This document shows, in pieces, positions 4,808-33,318 of a stretch of DNA of 43,358 bases (position 1 is the stretch's first letter; the number at the start of each line of letters is the position of its first letter). Position numbers and translations under genes: made by a program. The DNA is from a virus: IMG/VR virus record IMGVR_UViG_3300029267_003234, positions 1 to 43,358 of that record; one strand, written 5' to 3'. Below the pieces are notes generated by a model that did not search any database, had not been told where the DNA came from, and saw nothing but the letters and a program-made list of their open reading frames with translations.

Positions 4808-7585
4808 TTAAATCCTGTCATACGCCATTAGGGTCAACATCGAGTCGTCAAAATCTGATTTGATATTCGTTTTAGGTGCTATAGGTTGCTGGTTCGGTTT
4901 TTCAAAGGGATACGACGGTTTTTTTGCAGTGTTCTCCAGTGTTCGGACAAGCCGGTTGATAGCGGCATTATCAACGTTTTCAGGTGCCTTCTTGACATTG
5001 GCAGCAAGCTCTTTTGCCCTGGATCGTATGGGGAGATCCCCCTGTATCTGCTCGATTTTGGGCAGCGGCCTTACATGCTCAATCGTAGGGATGGGATCGC
5101 TTTGCACTTGCGGTTTCGCGACCGCTTGTGGGGATTCAATTGGTTTAGCAGTCTTGACCTGGGCTTTTTTGTCTTTTTTCCCCGTAAACCAGCCCCAAAT
5201 GGATTTGACACCTTCTGTTACAGTAGCAATGGGAGCGGTTATAGTCTTTTCGATAATCCCCTTTTCGCCTTTTTTGGTGTCTCCTTTTTTGGTGTCTCCT
5301 TTTTTGGTGTCTCCTTTTTTGGTGTCTCCTAAGCCAAAAAAATCTCCGATTTTGGATCCAAACCCATGTATGCCTTTGGCGATATCAGATGTATCGGCAT
5401 CGACGCCAAGCATACTAAGGAGGCCTGTGCCAAGCCCCCCCATGTCTAAGACGTTTGCCAGGGCGGATGATGTTTTTTGACCTGTTGTCGCATCCTGCCC
5501 TTTCTGTAAACCAAATGCCCGCTCCTGCATACCTCGGTCATGCCATCCTTGAAAGGCATCAAACCCGGCCATGCCAACAGCGGCTATTTGGCCAAGAACT
5601 GGAACCGCGCGAAGTGCCCCGCCTGCCAGCTTCCCGCCCATTTTCAATGCCGCCTTGCCACCCAGCTTGGTTGCGCCTCTGCCCCCTAATTTCGTTGCTA
5701 TTTTGGTGGAGGGCTTTGCTATAGGTTTGGCCGCCTTTGGGGCCGCTTCCGGGATGATATTGGTCGTTCGCGATGCTGCGCTTGTCACGGCTTGTTCTGC
5801 GACCATATCCGGGATAGATGATTCACCGCCCCCGAAAAGTCCTCCCAATAACCCCCCTCCAAGACCGCCAATCCCTAAACCACCAATCCCTAAACCACCA
5901 ATCCCTAAACCACCTGATATAAGGCCAGCAATTTTTCCAAACTTACCTCCCCCACGAAGACCCATCATCCTACGAGACAGGGACGGAGTCGGGGTCCTTT
6001 GTATTTTTGGGACCTTTATTTTCCCCATGGCCCCTGGCCGTTTTCGTTCGACCAGTTCGATGGACTTCGGGACCTTAACAGCCTTCGGAACCTTAACAGT
6101 CTCCGGGACCTTAACAGCCTTCGGAACCTTAACAGTCTCCGGAACCTTAACAGTCTCCGGAACCTTAGCAGCCTTCGGAACCTTAGCTGGCTTCGGGATC
6201 TTAGCAGCCTTCGGAACCTTAGCTGGCTTCGGGAGCTTAGCAGCCTTCGGAACCTTAACAGTCTCCGGAACCTTAGCAGCCTTCGGGACCTTAACAGCCT
6301 TCGGAACCTTAGCTGGCTTCGGAACCTTAGCTGGCTTTTCTACGTAAGCTTTCTTTGCGATAGGCTTCGGGACCCTTGGAGTTGTCTTCGTTCTGGGTAC
6401 CGTCTTGCTTGAACGTCTCTCCGTTCTCCTTCGGGATAAATCCCGAAATATCCCGCCGTCGATACCCTTTACAGCTTTAATCAATTCCTTGTGGTGGGTT
6501 TCGTCTTCGCGTTCAGTGTCCTTCAGAGCATCGACAGTCTGTATCCCTAATTTGGAAAGCTGTTCAGTGACGCGCTTATGGTCTTCAATATTTTGCGCGT
6601 TCTTCTGCTCTATTATGCGGGTTTTGGCTTCACTTTTAGCTGTAGTTTTTCCTGCTTTGATGGGTATGTACTTCCCCCGACTATCCCTCAGCCTGCCTGC
6701 GGCGTCCTTTTTGACACCATCTGGCAACGAATCTTCCTTCGATATTTTTCGTTTTCGTAAAAGACTTGAGGCGGCACCCTTTAGCCTTCCGAAATCGGTA
6801 TTATCTGCTACCTCCTTAGCTTCCTTGACAGCCCCCCACAAAGGCCCGCCGATAGCTGTCCCCGCAATATCTGTGATATCCTGATTTTCAAGGGCATCCC
6901 GGGCAATCCCCATGCCTGTAGTGCCCGCGCCTGCCAATACAGTCTTGATCCCTGATACTATGGATTTCCGGTCCTTAACTCGTTCTGATTCATTCTTGCG
7001 GGTTTCAAGAGCTGTTTCGCTTTTTGATCGTTCGATATTGGTATGATGGCCAGTATTATTCTCTGCCGTTTTCGGTCGTGGCTTGACAGATTTCGGTAAT
7101 CCGGTCTTACTCGATAATCCCTTACTCTTTGTGGCTTTTGACTCTCGAACAGTGTCAGCCTTTGCAGCATCCTGGATTTCTTTAGATAGGACAGCTTTCG
7201 CTTTTTGGAGATCCTTCGTATTCCTGCTACGTTCAATTTTACGGGTTTTTTCTGCCCCGGCACGGTTTGTCTTTTCAATGTATTGATTTTCGGTCTTAGC
7301 AGTAGGTGTTATAGCAGTAGCCTTTTTGGCTTTAGGATGATCTGAGAGTTGAATGAGTGTCCCGGTAGGTCGTTTTTTGATTAGATGCGAAATATCGCGG
7401 GTGTCCTTGCGGATATCGACCAGCACACCATAAACATTAGCATTGGAGGAAATGATGGAATCCAGCTTGTCAGCGAATGCAACAAGTTGATTCCCGCTTT
7501 CATAATCGCGTGAGGCCTCTTCCGGCATGGCCGGGATAGCGACATCCTGATGAACAATAATTGTTGCGTCTTTGATAGCAGCCAT
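4808..7585 (-). CDS. putative tail tape measure protein, low-complexity
   Basis: 925 residues. Residues of about 1-390 are charged and helical. A Lys-Val-Pro repeat region follows at about 415-520 (units KVPKAAKVPE, about 20 copies, encoded by a tandem 15-30 bp repeat at 6060-6345). Then come a Gly-rich hydrophobic segment (repeated GGLGI, encoded by 15-bp units near 5869-5915), an Ala/Gly hydrophobic helix (AAVGMAGFDAFQ), and four exact DTKKG units (5274-5333). Length, hydrophobic Gly segments and position between the chaperone pair and gp25 are those of tape measure proteins, which set tail length and help DNA pass the membrane. The basic KVPK repeat is unusual for one. An alternative is a baseplate hub/central spike-associated protein; I see no lysozyme or peptidase motif. 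Confidence 0.55.
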   Translation of the reverse strand: MAAIKDATIIVHQDVAIPAMPEEASRDYESGNQLVAFADKLDSIISSNANVYGVLVDIRKDTRDISHLIKKRPTGTLIQLSDHPKAKKATAITPTAKTENQYIEKTNRAGAEKTRKIERSRNTKDLQKAKAVLSKEIQDAAKADTVRESKATKSKGLSSKTGLPKSVKPRPKTAENNTGHHTNIERSKSETALETRKNESERVKDRKSIVSGIKTVLAGAGTTGMGIARDALENQDITDIAGTAIGGPLWGAVKEAKEVADNTDFGRLKGAASSLLRKRKISKEDSLPDGVKKDAAGRLRDSRGKYIPIKAGKTTAKSEAKTRIIEQKNAQNIEDHKRVTEQLSKLGIQTVDALKDTEREDETHHKELIKAVKGIDGGIFRDLSRRRTERRSSKTVPRTKTTPRVPKPIAKKAYVEKPAKVPKPAKVPKAVKVPKAAKVPETVKVPKAAKLPKPAKVPKAAKIPKPAKVPKAAKVPETVKVPETVKVPKAVKVPETVKVPKAVKVPKSIELVERKRPGAMGKIKVPKIQRTPTPSLSRRMMGLRGGGKFGKIAGLISGGLGIGGLGIGGLGIGGLGGGLLGGLFGGGESSIPDMVAEQAVTSAASRTTNIIPEAAPKAAKPIAKPSTKIATKLGGRGATKLGGKAALKMGGKLAGGALRAVPVLGQIAAVGMAGFDAFQGWHDRGMQERAFGLQKGQDATTGQKTSSALANVLDMGGLGTGLLSMLGVDADTSDIAKGIHGFGSKIGDFFGLGDTKKGDTKKGDTKKGDTKKGEKGIIEKTITAPIATVTEGVKSIWGWFTGKKDKKAQVKTAKPIESPQAVAKPQVQSDPIPTIEHVRPLPKIEQIQGDLPIRSRAKELAANVKKAPENVDNAAINRLVRTLENTAKKPSYPFEKPNQQPIAPKTNIKSDFDDSMLTLMAYDRI
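5274..6345. repeat. three tandem repeat tracts inside the tape-measure-like gene
   Basis: There are three tracts. One is about four near-identical units spelling DTKKG on the minus strand (5274-5333). The second is three units spelling GGLGI (5869-5915). The third is a long array of 15/30-bp units spelling KVPKAAKVPE variants (6060-6345). All keep the reading frame. They are typical of slippage or unequal recombination and would let the protein change length. Confidence 0.8.
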
Positions 7586-13713: not shown

Positions 13714-15309
13714 TTAAGACGACTCAATTTCCAGGTCCATAAAGTACTCACGACCGTCAAACGGTTGTAAGTCCCTGTAGGCCTGGCCCCACAGGGTATT
13801 CCGATATTTAAGGTCGGTTTGGATTGCATGTCTGAACGGCATGGGAGGAATGGCATCGCCGGTAACGTACCCGGCCTCACCCACGCCGCGGCCTTTGGCA
13901 TAACACAGGCACTTATATTGGGACTTTTGCGGATCCTCGAAGACATCCCACATGCCGAAGAGTTTACCAATATAGTGCGGTTGGGGTATGCGCCTATAGC
14001 CCGCGGCTGGCACGAAAAAAGGCTGCTTCATGGCTTTAAAAAGCGTAGCACTCTTTGAATCGGCTACGATCCCTACTAACCCAGAAGTACCGGTACGTTC
14101 CATCAGGACAGCATCAATTTCAAGCAGCGTTTCGCGTACTGTTTCGTAATGCTCTTGGAAATACAGACCAGTAGGCACCACCATGCTCCAGGCCCGCTCG
14201 CCCTTGGAGTAAAAGTACAGGTCGCGGAGGATCTTCCGATCACGGTCAGCGGCTAAAACATTACGCATTGCGGCCATGGCCATGGAGTCAGCATCCATAG
14301 AAAACTCACGACGTAGTGCCCACAACGCCTGCAGTGTGGTACTGGCTGAAATGGCGTTCTCGTGCGGATAAATCACGCGGGAATCCATCTCATGGTTGAT
14401 TACGGGGATCAAAGTAGGATCCTTTTCAATATCTACATCAAATCCGACATGAATCTCGATACCGTCCGCCGGGCCGGTACTAAAGATCGGGTCGATATTG
14501 CCGGTTGCGTAATCCACCGTTCCTGTCACTGTTATTGTGGTTTCCCCTACGACAAACGATCCATGTAGATTCCCCGCGCCGTCGTCTTTTGCAACGATAT
14601 TGTGGTCATGAAAAATCTTGATGGACTGCTTTTTAAATGGGTAAACTCCAGAGAATATGGTTTCGGAATCAAACTCGAAATCCCCTGTAAGCGTGGGGGT
14701 CGCCTCGCTATCAGCCTCTTTGACCAAATGGCGTTGGTCCATCGATGCATACTGGCCATTGAAAGAGTGATCAATTTTTTCTCCCTGTGTCAAGTCCCCA
14801 AAAGTAGACCCGGCCACTCGCCAGACTTTGAAAATTTCACTCTGGTTGTAATGCCCCGGGATATGCGACACCATCCGACTGGTAATCGACATTAAGGCAA
14901 CTGGCAGGATCAATGCGATCATCCGGTCCCGCATCAAAATCCCTTCTGTGGTCTCCAGATTAGATGACTCCAGAACCATATTGTCCGGGCCATTTCCAGC
15001 AGAGATTTCAATTCCGTTCTGGATTGCCTGGTAAGCACTGGCTAACATTTCATCAGATGGCATTTCACCATATTGCCGCTGGTAAGGTATTAGGGCATTG
15101 GCCGCAATGCGGGCTACAGTCCCTTTACCCTTGCCGATAGATTCAAAAACGCTACCTTCGACAGATCTGTCCAGGGCCTCAACAAGTTGGTTTTCGTTTG
15201 AGATAACCTCCCCGCTATCGCCGTCGATGATCGGGGTGATAATGGCATGGCGCATGGAAGCAGCCTTCTGACCGATCTCGACCATTCGTTTTTTATATTT
15301 TTCGGGCAT
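13714..15309 (-). CDS. major capsid protein (HK97-fold/T4 gp23-like)
   Basis: 531 residues. The N-terminal about 100 residues look like a removable scaffold arm, followed by helical and strand segments (MRDRMIALILPVALMSI, FKVWRVAGSTFGDL), long spine-helix material (ISASTTLQALWALRREFSMDA), then ERAWSMVVPTGLYFQEHY, GLVGIVADSKSATLFKA and a C-terminal QTDLKYRNTLWGQAYRDL. This layout is that of large HK97-fold capsid proteins. A strand-rich insert at about 240-300 (VVGETTITVTGTVDYATGN) may be a surface domain. ATG at 15309 has GAGGAG 8 bp upstream. It has its own leader with a CRISPR-like repeat and a UUCG hairpin downstream, so it may be expressed as a separate strong message. The capsid call is by layout and size; portal and protease are not adjacent. 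Confidence 0.6.
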   Translation of the reverse strand: MPEKYKKRMVEIGQKAASMRHAIITPIIDGDSGEVISNENQLVEALDRSVEGSVFESIGKGKGTVARIAANALIPYQRQYGEMPSDEMLASAYQAIQNGIEISAGNGPDNMVLESSNLETTEGILMRDRMIALILPVALMSITSRMVSHIPGHYNQSEIFKVWRVAGSTFGDLTQGEKIDHSFNGQYASMDQRHLVKEADSEATPTLTGDFEFDSETIFSGVYPFKKQSIKIFHDHNIVAKDDGAGNLHGSFVVGETTITVTGTVDYATGNIDPIFSTGPADGIEIHVGFDVDIEKDPTLIPVINHEMDSRVIYPHENAISASTTLQALWALRREFSMDADSMAMAAMRNVLAADRDRKILRDLYFYSKGERAWSMVVPTGLYFQEHYETVRETLLEIDAVLMERTGTSGLVGIVADSKSATLFKAMKQPFFVPAAGYRRIPQPHYIGKLFGMWDVFEDPQKSQYKCLCYAKGRGVGEAGYVTGDAIPPMPFRHAIQTDLKYRNTLWGQAYRDLQPFDGREYFMDLEIESS

Positions 15310-15352
15310 TTTACTTTCTCCTCATATCGTAAAGGTTTTAGTTGGTAAGTTT

Positions 15353-15384
15353 GTTTCAATCCACGCCCCTATACGAGGGGCGAC
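15353..15384 (-). ncRNA. solitary type I-C CRISPR repeat in capsid gene leader
   Basis: Read on the minus strand this 32-bp unit begins GTCGCCCC, has a 7-nt loop TCGTATA, and ends GGGGCGTGGATTGAAAC. This is the shape of type I-C repeats: a 6-bp GC stem (CGCCCC/GGGGCG) and the 3' handle GTGGATTGAAAC. No second copy lies within a spacer length on either side, so it is not an array. It lies 43 bp upstream of the capsid ATG and in the sense orientation of capsid mRNA, so it would be transcribed as part of the 5' leader. Type I-C Cas5 cuts at the base of this hairpin. A decoy-repeat (Racr) role or regulation of capsid mRNA is inferred. Confidence 0.75.
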
Positions 15385-27704: not shown

Positions 27705-27935
27705 TCAAGCCCACGGGAAAAACCCCAGGGCTTGAGAAACGGCATCCTCGACTTTCTGAGATGTTCGAGAACCCGACAAAACCATGTTAACATATTGTGT
27801 GGTGCAGCCCGCTTCCCGGGCAATATCGCCCTTGCGTATCCCGGACTCTTTTAACAGGAGTGAGATAATGTTTGAGAACGTAAATCCTGTTGTTGTCAGG
27901 AATGAAAACGCGAGACGGTTTTTTCTTGTTGTCAT
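27705..27935 (-). CDS. small HTH regulator (Cro-like)
   Basis: 76 residues from the ATG at 27935. The HTH is KGDIAREAGCTTQYVNMVLSG. The frame is open further upstream, but there it only translates the CRISPR repeat (FQSTPPHRGAT is what type I-C repeats spell on the reverse strand), so the longer start is rejected. The -35 of the oppositely directed promoter overlaps this start codon, so the two transcripts should affect each other. Confidence 0.6.
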   Translation of the reverse strand: MTTRKNRLAFSFLTTTGFTFSNIISLLLKESGIRKGDIAREAGCTTQYVNMVLSGSRTSQKVEDAVSQALGFFPWA

Positions 27936-27956
27936 TTCAACCCTGTGGTATAGAAT
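27929..27956 (+). promoter_or_regulatory. sigma70-like promoter in front of solitary CRISPR repeat
   Basis: -35 TTGTCA (27929-27934), 16-bp spacer, -10 TAGAAT (27951-27956); five of six positions match consensus in each box. Expected transcription start is near 27963, about 10 bases before the repeat unit at 27973. No plus-strand protein gene starts within the next 500 bp, so the natural product is a non-coding RNA. Confidence 0.55.
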
Positions 27957-27967
27957 ATTTATTGTGC

Positions 27968-28135
27968 CTACTGTCGCCCCCCTATGCGGGGGCGTGGATT
28001 GAAACACGGTTCCGCAACCGAAAGCTTATGGGTGGAGGGGGTGTGGCCCGTGCAAGTACACAGTACCCGCCGGTTACGGCTCCCGGCGGCGAACGTGGGT
28101 AAGCCGACCACGGTTACTTCCGAGAAATTCGTCAT
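27968..28135 (-). CDS. possible 55-residue Icd/Ash-like micro-protein
   Basis: The reading MTNFSEVTVVGLPTFAAGSR followed by NRRVLCTCTGHT has a weak GAGGGGG site upstream of the ATG at 28135. Its last residues translate the CRISPR repeat. The peptide recalls small Icd/Ash-type ORFs that lie opposite antisense RNAs in P1/P4-like immunity regions. It may equally be only the complement of a structured RNA on the other strand. Low confidence. Confidence 0.25.
   Translation of the reverse strand: MTNFSEVTVVGLPTFAAGSRNRRVLCTCTGHTPSTHKLSVAEPCFNPRPRIGGRQ
27973..28005 (+). ncRNA. solitary type I-C CRISPR repeat unit (Racr candidate)
   Basis: Plus-strand 33-bp unit: GTCGCCCCCC, loop TATGC, GGGGGCGTGGATTGAAAC. 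The stem CGCCCCC/GGGGGCG and the 3' handle GTGGATTGAAAC are those of type I-C repeats and match the unit at 15353-15384 in both outer parts. Only one copy is present here, with no spacer-length neighbour, no leader and no cas gene. A promoter ends 17 bp upstream. Solitary repeat units behind a promoter in phages are the known form of RNA-based anti-CRISPRs, which load Cas proteins into inactive complexes. Confidence 0.75.
28025..28130 (+). ncRNA. structured RNA segment downstream of the CRISPR repeat, C4-like
   Basis: About 100 bp with consecutive hairpins: CCGCCGG (28067-28073)/CCGGCGG (28083-28089) with a 9-nt loop, and CGTGG (28094-28098)/CCACG (28108-28112). A long-range pair ATGGGTGG (near 28028-28035) and CCACCCAT (near 28161-28168) closes the region. 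Location in an immunity region beside HTH genes, and the opposite micro-ORF, recall the C4/CI antisense RNAs of P1, P7 and P4. Identity is not proved. Confidence 0.4.
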
Positions 28136-28167
28136 TAAGGAGTCCCCCTCTAAATAAACCCCACCCA

Positions 28168-28401
28168 TTATTTATGCAGCTCCGGGTCTGGTAACGAATC
28201 CAAATGTCTAAATAACCGCTCCAGCAGCCTAATTGAGCCAGGCCCGTTCCTGTACCCCGTGAGGGCCATACAGAGAGAGTTGCTGTTGACAGGTTCCTCC
28301 GGGGTGGCTATGGCCGCCGCCAGGGCCTTTTGAGATCCCTGGCCGTCAAGACTCAGATCCACCAGAAGGTGCTTTATTTGTTTTCTAAGATCGCTTTCCA
28401 T
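28168..28401 (-). CDS. small putative regulator
   Basis: 77 residues. QGSQKALAAAIATPEEPVNS followed by SLCMALTGYRNGPGSIRLLE resembles a degenerate HTH (Q..LA..I......S.......G....P......L...). No good ribosome site is seen. It is divergent from the CI-type repressor gene, where Cro-type genes lie. Moderate-low confidence. Confidence 0.45.
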   Translation of the reverse strand: MESDLRKQIKHLLVDLSLDGQGSQKALAAAIATPEEPVNSNSLCMALTGYRNGPGSIRLLERLFRHLDSLPDPELHK

Positions 28402-28502
28402 AAAGTTCGAACCATAAGTACCTCTATTAAATTAAATGTCTTCGATCGTTCATGGAGTGAGATGCTACACGAAGCGTGAATTGTTGTCAAGGAAATAATC
28501 AC

Positions 28503-29021
28503 ATGCTGAATATGATGGAAGTGCTAAACCGCGTTTCTGAGGTAATAGGGCTGACTGCCAATAAGGATATTGCTACTGAATTAAATGTCGAACCGAACGT
28601 ATGTTCAAACTGGAAAACCCGAAACACTGTCCCATGGGAAAATTTGTTCCGTTTTTGCATAAAGCGTAGCGTCTCTATGAACTGGCTCCTAACCGGCAAA
28701 GAGCGCACCGAACCCGAGCCCCTCGAACCCGAGACCAGCCAGGCCATAGATGCCGTGAAGGAGATCATGGCATCAGAAAATGATTATGCAAAGGCAGCCC
28801 TGGCGTCGAACTTGATAGCGTTCAAGGCAATGGTTGCGGCCGAGAAAGATGCTGCTAAGAAGTTGACAAATAAAGAAAAAGAGATAAAAAAGAAGAACGA
28901 ACAGATCGAAGGATTGGAAAAGCGCGTTGACAAGTTGGAAAAAGAACGTACGCATATTAGGTATATAAACGACCCTCCTGCAATCGCTGCTACCGGAACG
29001 GAGAATGGTACCGATACATAA
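28503..29021 (+). CDS. CI-type phage repressor, N-terminal domain plus coiled coil
   Basis: 172 residues from the ATG at 28503 (AAGGA upstream; an in-frame GTG at 28476 is less likely). Residues of about 1-62 match the bacteriophage CI repressor HTH family: VIGLTANKDIATELNVEPNV, then SNWKTRNTVPWENLFRFCIK and MNWLLTG. The C-terminal half lacks the S24/LexA-type peptidase of classical CI and instead is a Lys/Glu heptad helix (KKLTNKEKEIKKKNEQIEGL), a coiled coil for oligomerisation. SOS-type autocleavage is therefore not expected; induction may need an antirepressor. Confidence 0.75.
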   Translation: MLNMMEVLNRVSEVIGLTANKDIATELNVEPNVCSNWKTRNTVPWENLFRFCIKRSVSMNWLLTGKERTEPEPLEPETSQAIDAVKEIMASENDYAKAALASNLIAFKAMVAAEKDAAKKLTNKEKEIKKKNEQIEGLEKRVDKLEKERTHIRYINDPPAIAATGTENGTDT

Positions 29022-31348: not shown

Positions 31349-32026
31349 TTACCTGATCGTTGGTGAAACGAATGTCTTAGCTGTAACCACACCTGTTTGA
31401 CCCCTGCGTGGTTCAAAGCTAAAAGTGTCCCCTATACGAACCTTATATCCTCTATCAATCCCACCCTCGGCCATCGGGGATACGGTATCTTGAGGGGTGG
31501 GTTTAGGGAGGGGTTCTAAAGAATCTTCTAAGCCAAGGACAAGAGCCTCAGTTTTTGATCCATTAAAGACAACATCATAATCAAGATCAATTAAAGTTGC
31601 CTGAACTGTAGCCATATCATACAAAGAATGTGATTGTAAATCTTCGACAGATAAATCATCAACCAATCCTTTATAACGAAATTTTGATGGGTACCACTTG
31701 ATTAAAAGTCGGGCTAAAACTTTTACCTGTTCTTTATTTTCTGTATTAAATGGATTTCGAGCCTTTACCACAAATGGATATACATGCTTCAAATCTTCAT
31801 CTTTTGCATAATTTTGAGCATATATAACATCTTTCGCTAACCATAAACCACCGCCATAAACAGGTGACCCCTCTTCTAAATCAAGCTTACCATATCTTGA
31901 ACCATGAAAAAAAACATCTTGCGGGGGGCTTTCGTGTTGATACTTTTTAACAAGGTCCAACCTTTCAATCCCACCCTCGGCCATCGGGGATACGGTGGGT
32001 ATGCGGCCTTCCCCCTTCTCGGTCAT
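31349..32026 (-). CDS. ADP-ribosyltransferase-like (ART-PolyVal type) protein
   Basis: 225 residues. VFFHGSRYGKLDLEEGSPVY, GGGLWLAKDVIYAQNYAKDE, then HVYPFVVKARNPFNTENKEQ matches the ART fold of polyvalent phage proteins: 'FhGs......F........GGlWfs.....A..Ya....vyp..l...nP'. The HGS and the L-W-x-(A/S) positions are those that bind NAD. The flanks repeat the peptide TVSPMAEGGI at residues of about 10 and 193, encoded by an exact 32-bp DNA repeat. It overlaps the MerR-like gene upstream by 4 bp. It probably modifies a host protein or RNA on entry; targets unknown. Confidence 0.55.
   Translation of the reverse strand: MTEKGEGRIPTVSPMAEGGIERLDLVKKYQHESPPQDVFFHGSRYGKLDLEEGSPVYGGGLWLAKDVIYAQNYAKDEDLKHVYPFVVKARNPFNTENKEQVKVLARLLIKWYPSKFRYKGLVDDLSVEDLQSHSLYDMATVQATLIDLDYDVVFNGSKTEALVLGLEDSLEPLPKPTPQDTVSPMAEGGIDRGYKVRIGDTFSFEPRRGQTGVVTAKTFVSPTIR
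31455..31996. repeat. 32-bp direct repeat flanking the ART domain
   Basis: 31455-31486 and 31965-31996 are identical over 32 bp, 510 bp apart and in frame. Both encode (T)VSPMAEGGI. The repeat neatly brackets the ART domain, as if a cassette had been inserted into, or could be excised from, a larger protein. Confidence 0.8.
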
Positions 32027-32531: not shown

Positions 32532-32677
32532 CTAATAAATCAAAAAATTAAACCCTTTTTTTTCTCTGTCGCAAGCCTCGATCTTGTTTCAAATCTATTT
32601 CCGCTTCTAATAATCCCCCACCAACCGCCTCCGGGGTTTTTTGTTGTAAGAAAAATTCACGTCATGACATTTTTTCC

Positions 32678-32706
32678 TTGACATAAGTTCACGTTTTGTG
32701 TATCCT
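32678..32706 (+). promoter_or_regulatory. strong promoter of the structured RNA/tRNA locus
   Basis: Perfect -35 TTGACA (32678-32683), 17-bp spacer, -10 TATCCT (32701-32706). The 7-bp sequence TTCACGT occurs at 32656-32662 and 32688-32694, 32 bp apart, possibly a binding site. Expected start near 32713, eight bases before the first RNA stem. Confidence 0.7.
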
Positions 32707-32720
32707 TTCACTCAACATCA

Positions 32721-32892: not shown

Positions 32893-32967
32893 CGCGGGTT
32901 GGCCAAGTAGTAAGGCGCCGGGTTCATACCTCGGAGATCAGGGGTGCAAATCCTCTACCCGCTACCA
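32893..32967 (+). tRNA. tRNA with anticodon CAT (Met/initiator-like or Ile2), CCA encoded
   Basis: A full cloverleaf can be drawn. The acceptor is CGCGGGT/ACCCGCT with a C-T mismatch at 1:72. The D arm is GCC...GGC. The anticodon arm is CCGGG-TTCATAC-CTCGG with CAT at 32925-32927. The T arm is AGGGG-TGCAAAT-CCTCT, the discriminator is A, and CCA is encoded. An unpaired 1:72 and G29-G30-G31 in the anticodon stem are initiator features. The D loop lacks GG and T-loop position 55 is G, so the fold or modification is unusual. Confidence 0.75.
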
Positions 32968-33318
32968 AAAAAAAGAAACCCATCAGCTTAACCTCCTTAA
33001 CTTGGCGTAAACCTCCATAACCACCCGCAATCGTGCGGGAACGGGGCATTGTGCTCCGAAGGAAGATAACCGTCAACCTCAGCGATGGCAGGGTCCCGGG
33101 GCGGTCCCGGGTGGCAGTGGACACGCTGCAAAACAAAACGAGGTGGCCAACCCTGCCATCATTAATTCTTTACCAGTTGAGTTGTGCGCTTTCTCTCCTA
33201 AGCCCTCTGACTCTCCGTGTGAGGGCAGCCGCAGCACCGGCCGGAGACTCCGCTGCCCAATAAAACAGGGAGAGGGCTTAGACGAGAGAGCGCACAACAA
33301 ACGCCGAAGGGATGATGT

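Follow-up and report, generated by a model that had tools for sequence, protein, structure and literature searches.

Two solitary type I-C CRISPR repeats were found in a phage genome, one beside lysogeny and regulator genes (SRU1) and the other upstream of the major capsid gene, within its leader (SRU2), and we consider it somewhat probable that both act as RNA anti-CRISPRs (Racrs) against a host type I-C system. The repeat sequences, their hairpins and their positions were observed, and the window, that is, the whole stretch of 43,358 bases that was analysed, contained neither a CRISPR array nor type I-C cas genes. The window is the whole of its viral record in IMG/VR and is classed as linear, a class that often represents fragments. 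The features around SRU1 are as follows.

27705 to 27935, minus strand: small HTH regulator gene, divergent from SRU1 (PHROG transcriptional repressor, E 3.7e-6; Pfam HTH_3 below the cut-off)
27929 to 27956, plus strand: sigma-70-like promoter sequence TTGTCA-16-TAGAAT, by consensus match only (5/6 in each box, 10/12 in total)
27973 to 28005, plus strand: SRU1, solitary type I-C CRISPR repeat of 33 nt (from pattern, fold and comparison with array repeats)
28006 to 28040, plus strand: spacer-like stretch 3' of SRU1, the first 20 nt of which are shared, among viral contigs, only with a sister contig
28503 to 29021, plus strand: CI-type phage repressor gene (Pfam Phage_CI_repr, E 5.6e-10)

SRU1 was as an earlier sequence-only reading of this DNA had described it, with a GTCGCCCC start, a GC stem and a GTGGATTGAAAC end, and it folded as the I-C hairpin (seven pairs, −15.4 kcal/mol, z −2.50). 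At up to three mismatches, the unit occurred once in the window and in none of 100 shuffles of it. The Rfam family CRISPR-DR9 matched SRU1 at 23.2 bits (E 0.018), well below the curated threshold of 45. A 218-nt fold containing the unit retained six of the seven hairpin pairs, and when 83 nt comprising SRU1 and the sequence that follows were folded, the best structure broke the repeat hairpin. SRU1 falls within a GTG-started minus-strand ORF (27705-28007) and a heuristically called 66-aa plus-strand ORF; it is probably intergenic because the HTH matches lie downstream of an internal ATG at 27935. No terminator was found 3' of the unit. The stretch at 28006-28180 looked RNA-like and was considered as a structured RNA of its own. 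This was rejected, as its fold was no more stable than those of shuffled sequences (z −0.19 including SRU1 and −0.60 excluding it), Rfam at E ≤10 gave just three weak matches, all over the repeat, plasmid matches numbered four and were at chance level, and a 20-nt piece of it was present in no viral contig except the sister.

The same reading had taken the unit to be present in single copy. This did not hold, since a second type I-C unit, which it had missed, was found on the minus strand in the capsid leader.

15353 to 15384, minus strand: SRU2, solitary type I-C CRISPR repeat of 32 nt, GTCGCCCCTCGTATAGGGGCGTGGATTGAAAC, with a loop unlike that of SRU1
15310 to 15352, minus strand: 43-nt leader from SRU2 to the capsid start codon, with the ribosome-binding site GAGGAG at 15318-15323
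13714 to 15309, minus strand: gene for the major capsid (head) protein, homologous to P1 gp23 (30% identical to P1-like phages by tblastn, at 98% coverage)

The GTGGATTGAAAC end occurs twice in the record, once in each unit, and the units share 18 identical nucleotides at and just past the 3' end. The SRU2 hairpin was canonical (z −2.67) and was stable within the leader (z −3.06). SRU2 is intergenic, and the ribosome-binding site of the capsid gene lies 30-35 nt past its handle. No terminator was seen between SRU2 and the capsid gene, and no promoter was found upstream of the unit. The capsid homologue of RCS47 is labelled "major head protein Gp23" and that of JL22 "major capsid protein", with other records differing; the gene product itself matched Pfam Gp23 just below the cut-off (E 6.7e-5) and phrog_1014, a PHROG family without a function. 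By analogy with P1, we take the capsid gene to be expressed late.

Both units were compared with the array repeats of bacterial genomes, for which the sample comprised at least 118 loci, with 71 distinct repeats among the matches listed. Among these matches, SRU1 was one edit from two repeats, GTCGCCCCCCATGCGGGGGCGTGGATTGAAAC (20 times, 4/118 genome loci) and another seen once, which agrees with the type I-C subtype named by the sequence-only reading; the exact SRU1 sequence gave no match in the genome collection. SRU2 was, again among the matches listed, one edit from a single-copy repeat and two edits from a main repeat present in 30 copies in one genome. In the genome nearest SRU2 among these matches (L123/G002), the array is adjoined by type I-C Cas5c, Cas8c, Cas7 and Cas1c and by a Cas3. 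SRU1 and SRU2 therefore resemble different repeat variants. For each, identity to a known CRISPR repeat of the genome arrays was 90% or more across no less than 90% of that repeat, a criterion of the SRUFinder type, and no further repeat was found within 130 bp on each side of either unit, by our own thresholds modelled on a published test of about 100 bp. The likeness to CRISPR repeats could instead be a coincidence, the inverted-repeat core being a DNA operator for a phage regulator, as the place of SRU1 between regulator genes would allow. This was judged extremely unlikely, as the 5' GTCG and the GTGGATTGAAAC tail, which is not palindromic, are shared without change by SRU1, SRU2 and real repeats, and SRU1 never arose in the window shuffles.

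The absence of cas genes, also claimed at the outset, was borne out when six Cas proteins from a type I-C reference locus were run against the window by tblastn, with no meaningful match (best E 0.35). A search for spacers directed against the phage, with 1,428 pieces (putative spacers and flanks) from the at least 118 genome loci and 112 spacers from six array loci, yielded none that was convincing; the best matches in the window were 16 exact nucleotides or 18/19 nt. A search of 395 genomes from the phylum that includes a Desulfobulbaceae genome (taken to be Desulfobacterota) detected capsid relatives in 3; two of them are strong, at 58 and 50% identity, and the third is weak. In the genome with the 50% identical capsid there are 66 I-C repeats, located on a single contig that is not the prophage's, and the I-C repeat pattern was absent from the genome with the 58% identical capsid. 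Placing the phage host within this phylum is a guess. As a separate observation, the solitary repeat of viral contig L292 equals the I-C array repeat of G324, the genome holding the 50% identical capsid relative.

The promoter reported upstream of SRU1 was recovered by a promoter scan, which placed the end of the site 16 nt before the unit; the −35 box shares bases with the ATG (27933-27935) of the divergent HTH gene. A comparable site 5-40 nt upstream is found for just 0.42% of the positions on the plus strand (0.96% of the intergenic ones), and this proximity is therefore suggestive of a promoter, short of proof. The contention that there is no plus-strand gene for the site to serve needs to be softened. 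The CI-type repressor gene lies on the plus strand about 500 nt downstream of SRU1, but it is not an obvious partner because a minus-strand ORF (28168-28401) intervenes. No sign of a known acr gene near SRU1 was seen, as NCBIfam gave no match for the four proteins nearby. Several other elements were seen in and beyond the regulator region. A 51-nt inverted repeat (28455-28505 and 32663-32713, 78% complementary) with a TTGACA box in each arm flanks this region and is possibly one regulatory element used twice. The protein encoded at 31349-32026 has a duplicated TVSPMAEGGI motif and a weak match, below the cut-off, to the ADP-ribosyltransferase of polyvalent proteins (E 8.1e-6). Inverted arms of 28 nt, 89% complementary and 62 nt apart, lie at 33181-33298, 3' of a tRNA-Met gene (32893-32967).

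Solitary repeat units (SRUs) of phages are known RNA anti-CRISPRs, as the sequence-only reading had stated; they were described as such by Camara-Wilpert et al. in 2023, where the nine tested candidates inhibited and 2,103 units were located on viral sequences, IMG/VR included (PMC10651486). According to its introduction, such units often lie just downstream of a predicted promoter, and 83% of prophage SRUs with cas-bearing hosts are reported to have a host CRISPR-Cas of the same subtype. The same work includes a tested type I-C example, RacrIC1, which is co-transcribed with acrIC5. RacrIC1 and the other Racrs resemble SRU1 and SRU2 in being solitary phage repeats with no adjoining cas genes, and RacrIC1 shares with the present units its type and has the place within a longer transcript with a protein gene that is proposed here for SRU2 (PMC10651486). 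It differs in adjoining an acr gene, whereas the present phage has two putative Racrs with differing loops, one of them in a capsid leader. The Racr principle, with a tested type I-C example, is thus already known, and no report of a capsid-leader copy was found. The listings from full-text searches for Racr with type I-C, SRU with capsid and repeat-like autoregulation, in a collection with few subscription papers, showed no capsid-leader unit, and the words "capsid" and "late gene" are absent from the main text of PMC10651486. The placement of SRU2 in the capsid leader is the unusual and interesting part of the finding.

Published studies of Racrs and Cas5d would lead one to expect that the two units are transcribed and cut, that they sequester Cas proteins and that they provide a two-stage supply. 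SRU1 RNA would start at a promoter of its own, amid the regulator genes, and serve as an early or lysogenic supply, and SRU2 RNA would be part of the late capsid mRNA and provide a late supply. In type I-C systems, Cas5d takes the place of Cas6 and its cut leaves a 33-nt guide between an 11-nt 5' handle and a 21-nt 3' hairpin (PMC5965380). Host Cas5d would accordingly bind and cut each repeat hairpin as pre-crRNA. On the upstream product, Cas5d would stay on its hairpin; the downstream product would carry a proper 11-nt 5' handle, on which Cas5, Cas7 and Cas8c could assemble around an RNA that is no guide against the phage. The Cas proteins would be spent on useless RNA. Unlike RacrIF1, which traps Cas6f and Cas7f on a piece without the 5' handle (PMC10651486), the type I-C unit would have the handle on its downstream product and may thus gather a fuller Cascade with a useless guide.

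The downstream RNA could also be a functional guide, each unit being a one-repeat mini-CRISPR that directs the host's Cascade against one of its genes or against some other virus. Virus-borne mini-CRISPR arrays are known (Medvedeva et al. 2019, cited in PMC11656645) and, like this phage, carry repeats in a virus without cas genes; a proper handle on the downstream RNA would be consistent with such a use. The present units differ from mini-arrays (as presented in PMC11656645) in having a single repeat per site and in that the next 20 nt exactly match no other virus. An exact search of IMG/VR with the first 20 nt after SRU1 and after SRU2 returned no contig except the sister, and a seed search for TTC-flanked matches of the downstream sequences inside the window gave best matches that did not surpass those of shuffled spacers. 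It was concluded from these two results that a mini-array is very unlikely.

The virus is probably a P1-like temperate myophage, which was deduced from the P1-like capsid, a PacB-like large terminase (37% identical over 97% to that of P1 and its relatives), a tail sheath gene downstream of the capsid gene and the CI-type repressor gene. A 925-aa protein is encoded at 4808-7585, with 18-nt tandem repeats at 6011-6370 that encode a stretch rich in lysine, alanine, valine and proline. The sister contig, from metagenome 3300017989, carries both SRU1 and SRU2 and differs by one mismatch over 21,593 bases and by none over 11,359 (99.995 and 100% identical). On this near-identity it is the same population as the IMG/VR record, and the conservation of the units between the two is therefore not independent. 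Six more distant relative contigs have capsids 54-64% identical, two of the six with identical leaders; no type I-C unit was found in their capsid leaders or in a hairpin-plus-handle scan of 19-22 kb of each. This absence, together with the confinement of the exact flanks to one population, is what would be expected if the units were inert or nearly so, having been captured from host-array repeats and kept by chance in a young lineage. Such an origin was considered unlikely, though it deserves to be taken seriously: the units share the 18-nt 3' part despite their different loops, stems and handles are intact in both, and SRU2 sits in the leader of an essential gene.

The setting of such units more generally was surveyed with three viral pattern scans, which together with the two units of the window gave at least 103 solitary I-C units. 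From 312 repeat matches listed, 168 array members, 13 matches near a locus end, 15 duplicates (including the sister contig) and 13 with poor stems were removed, leaving 103; gene calls were heuristic and contigs were counted regardless of relatedness. Of the listed units, 34 lay inside ORFs (15 on the same strand and 19 on the opposite) and 69 between genes. The intergenic units were found between genes of their own strand in 41 cases, between opposite-strand genes in 10 (41 versus 10, p 1.5e-5) and in mixed settings or at an end in 18. The excess persisted with stricter gene calls of 120 aa (44 versus 12 listed units, p 2.1e-5), suggesting that most type I-C units of viruses are oriented for reading with phage operons, like SRU2. 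Two or more solitary units were present in 6 of the 96 surveyed contigs listed (a hand count), and paired units in one phage thus recur. A predicted start codon lay within 43 nt in 24 of 46 listed intergenic units with a same-strand gene next, so the nearness of SRU2 to its start codon is unexceptional.

Promoters were not enriched at the listed units (5/103 versus 34/848 random intergenic positions, p 0.60). A terminator within 160 nt downstream was found for 10 of the 103 listed units versus 36 of 848 random intergenic positions (p 0.025), with 2/103 on the antisense side, and the terminator-followed units look like free-standing small RNA genes. Candidates of this kind are L022, L173, L225 and L232, in which an intrinsic terminator lies 54-118 nt 3' of the solitary I-C repeat. 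Viral contig L028 has two different type I-C repeat sequences adjacent in one short array.

A hot spot before capsid genes was considered and is not claimed. Of the 26 units that had a gene of 170 aa or more on their own strand no further than 260 nt away, 6 preceded a capsid or head maturation protease gene (the window, L038, L305, L173, L219 and L225), versus 0 of 26 control leaders (Fisher p 0.023), the controls being the 26 annotated of 79 drawn from the survey loci. Of one batch of ten proteins, two were annotated (L036 and L044). This category was picked post hoc on data already seen, and the window's gene was counted through its likeness to P1, an aid that the controls did not have; with the PHROG label alone the comparison became 5/26 versus 0/26 (p 0.051), and when every "head and packaging" gene was counted, the window's among them, it was 7/26 versus 5/26 (p 0.74). 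Furthermore, L173, L225 and L232 have a terminator before the gene and are therefore not mRNA leaders. The unit of L026, which lies 42 nt before an operon holding a capsid gene, was outside the survey as it is too near the locus end.

SRU2 might serve to regulate the capsid mRNA, with a Cas5d cut or a Cascade reaching the ribosome-binding site, such that capsid synthesis tracks free type I-C Cas. The geometry is compatible with this: the unit is 43 nt before the ATG, the ribosome-binding site falls at the far end of the 33-nt guide region, the leader hairpin is stable with no terminator between, and the short distance to a start codon is shared by the 24/46 listed intergenic units. Regulation of this kind was nevertheless judged distinctly unlikely, because it leaves SRU1 unexplained, was not encountered for phages in the literature searches, and would have to be reconciled with the 20 of 26 annotated large-gene units that precede something other than a capsid or head protease gene. 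Since the ribosome-binding site of the capsid gene would mark the end of the SRU2 guide region, capsid translation and the decoy function of SRU2 may compete. From this competition a joint circuit can be envisaged, for which we see only a slim chance, in which the capsid gene is a sensor of the CRISPR state: free type I-C Cas would cut the leader and cover the ribosome-binding site, and much capsid would be made only after SRU1 RNA had titrated Cas, SRU1 being the decoy and SRU2 the sensor.

The assignment of both units as Racrs is supported by their near-identity to array repeats, the canonical hairpins, the solitary state and the published Racrs, and further by the lack of a 20-nt match in other viruses, the orientation bias of the survey and the pairs in 6/96 listed contigs. 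It is weakened by the lack of independent conservation, the six relatives without units, the 83-nt fold, and the missing SRU1 terminator and SRU2 promoter, as well as by the finding that a promoter is no general mark in the survey and that no acr gene was indicated near SRU1. The initial proposal of a Racr candidate at SRU1 is still the best reading of a solitary I-C-like repeat with a promoter-like site, no type I-C cas genes and no 20-nt match in another virus; its view of a lone locus has been replaced by one of two units.

If the Racr assignment is true, this phage would draw anti-CRISPR RNA from two transcription programmes, that of the regulator region and that of the late structural mRNA, which bears on when an RNA decoy is needed during infection. 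The operon-oriented reading of viral type I-C units bears on the strategy by which such units are searched for. The copy in the capsid leader poses the question of the fate of an mRNA whose leader is a Cas5d substrate.
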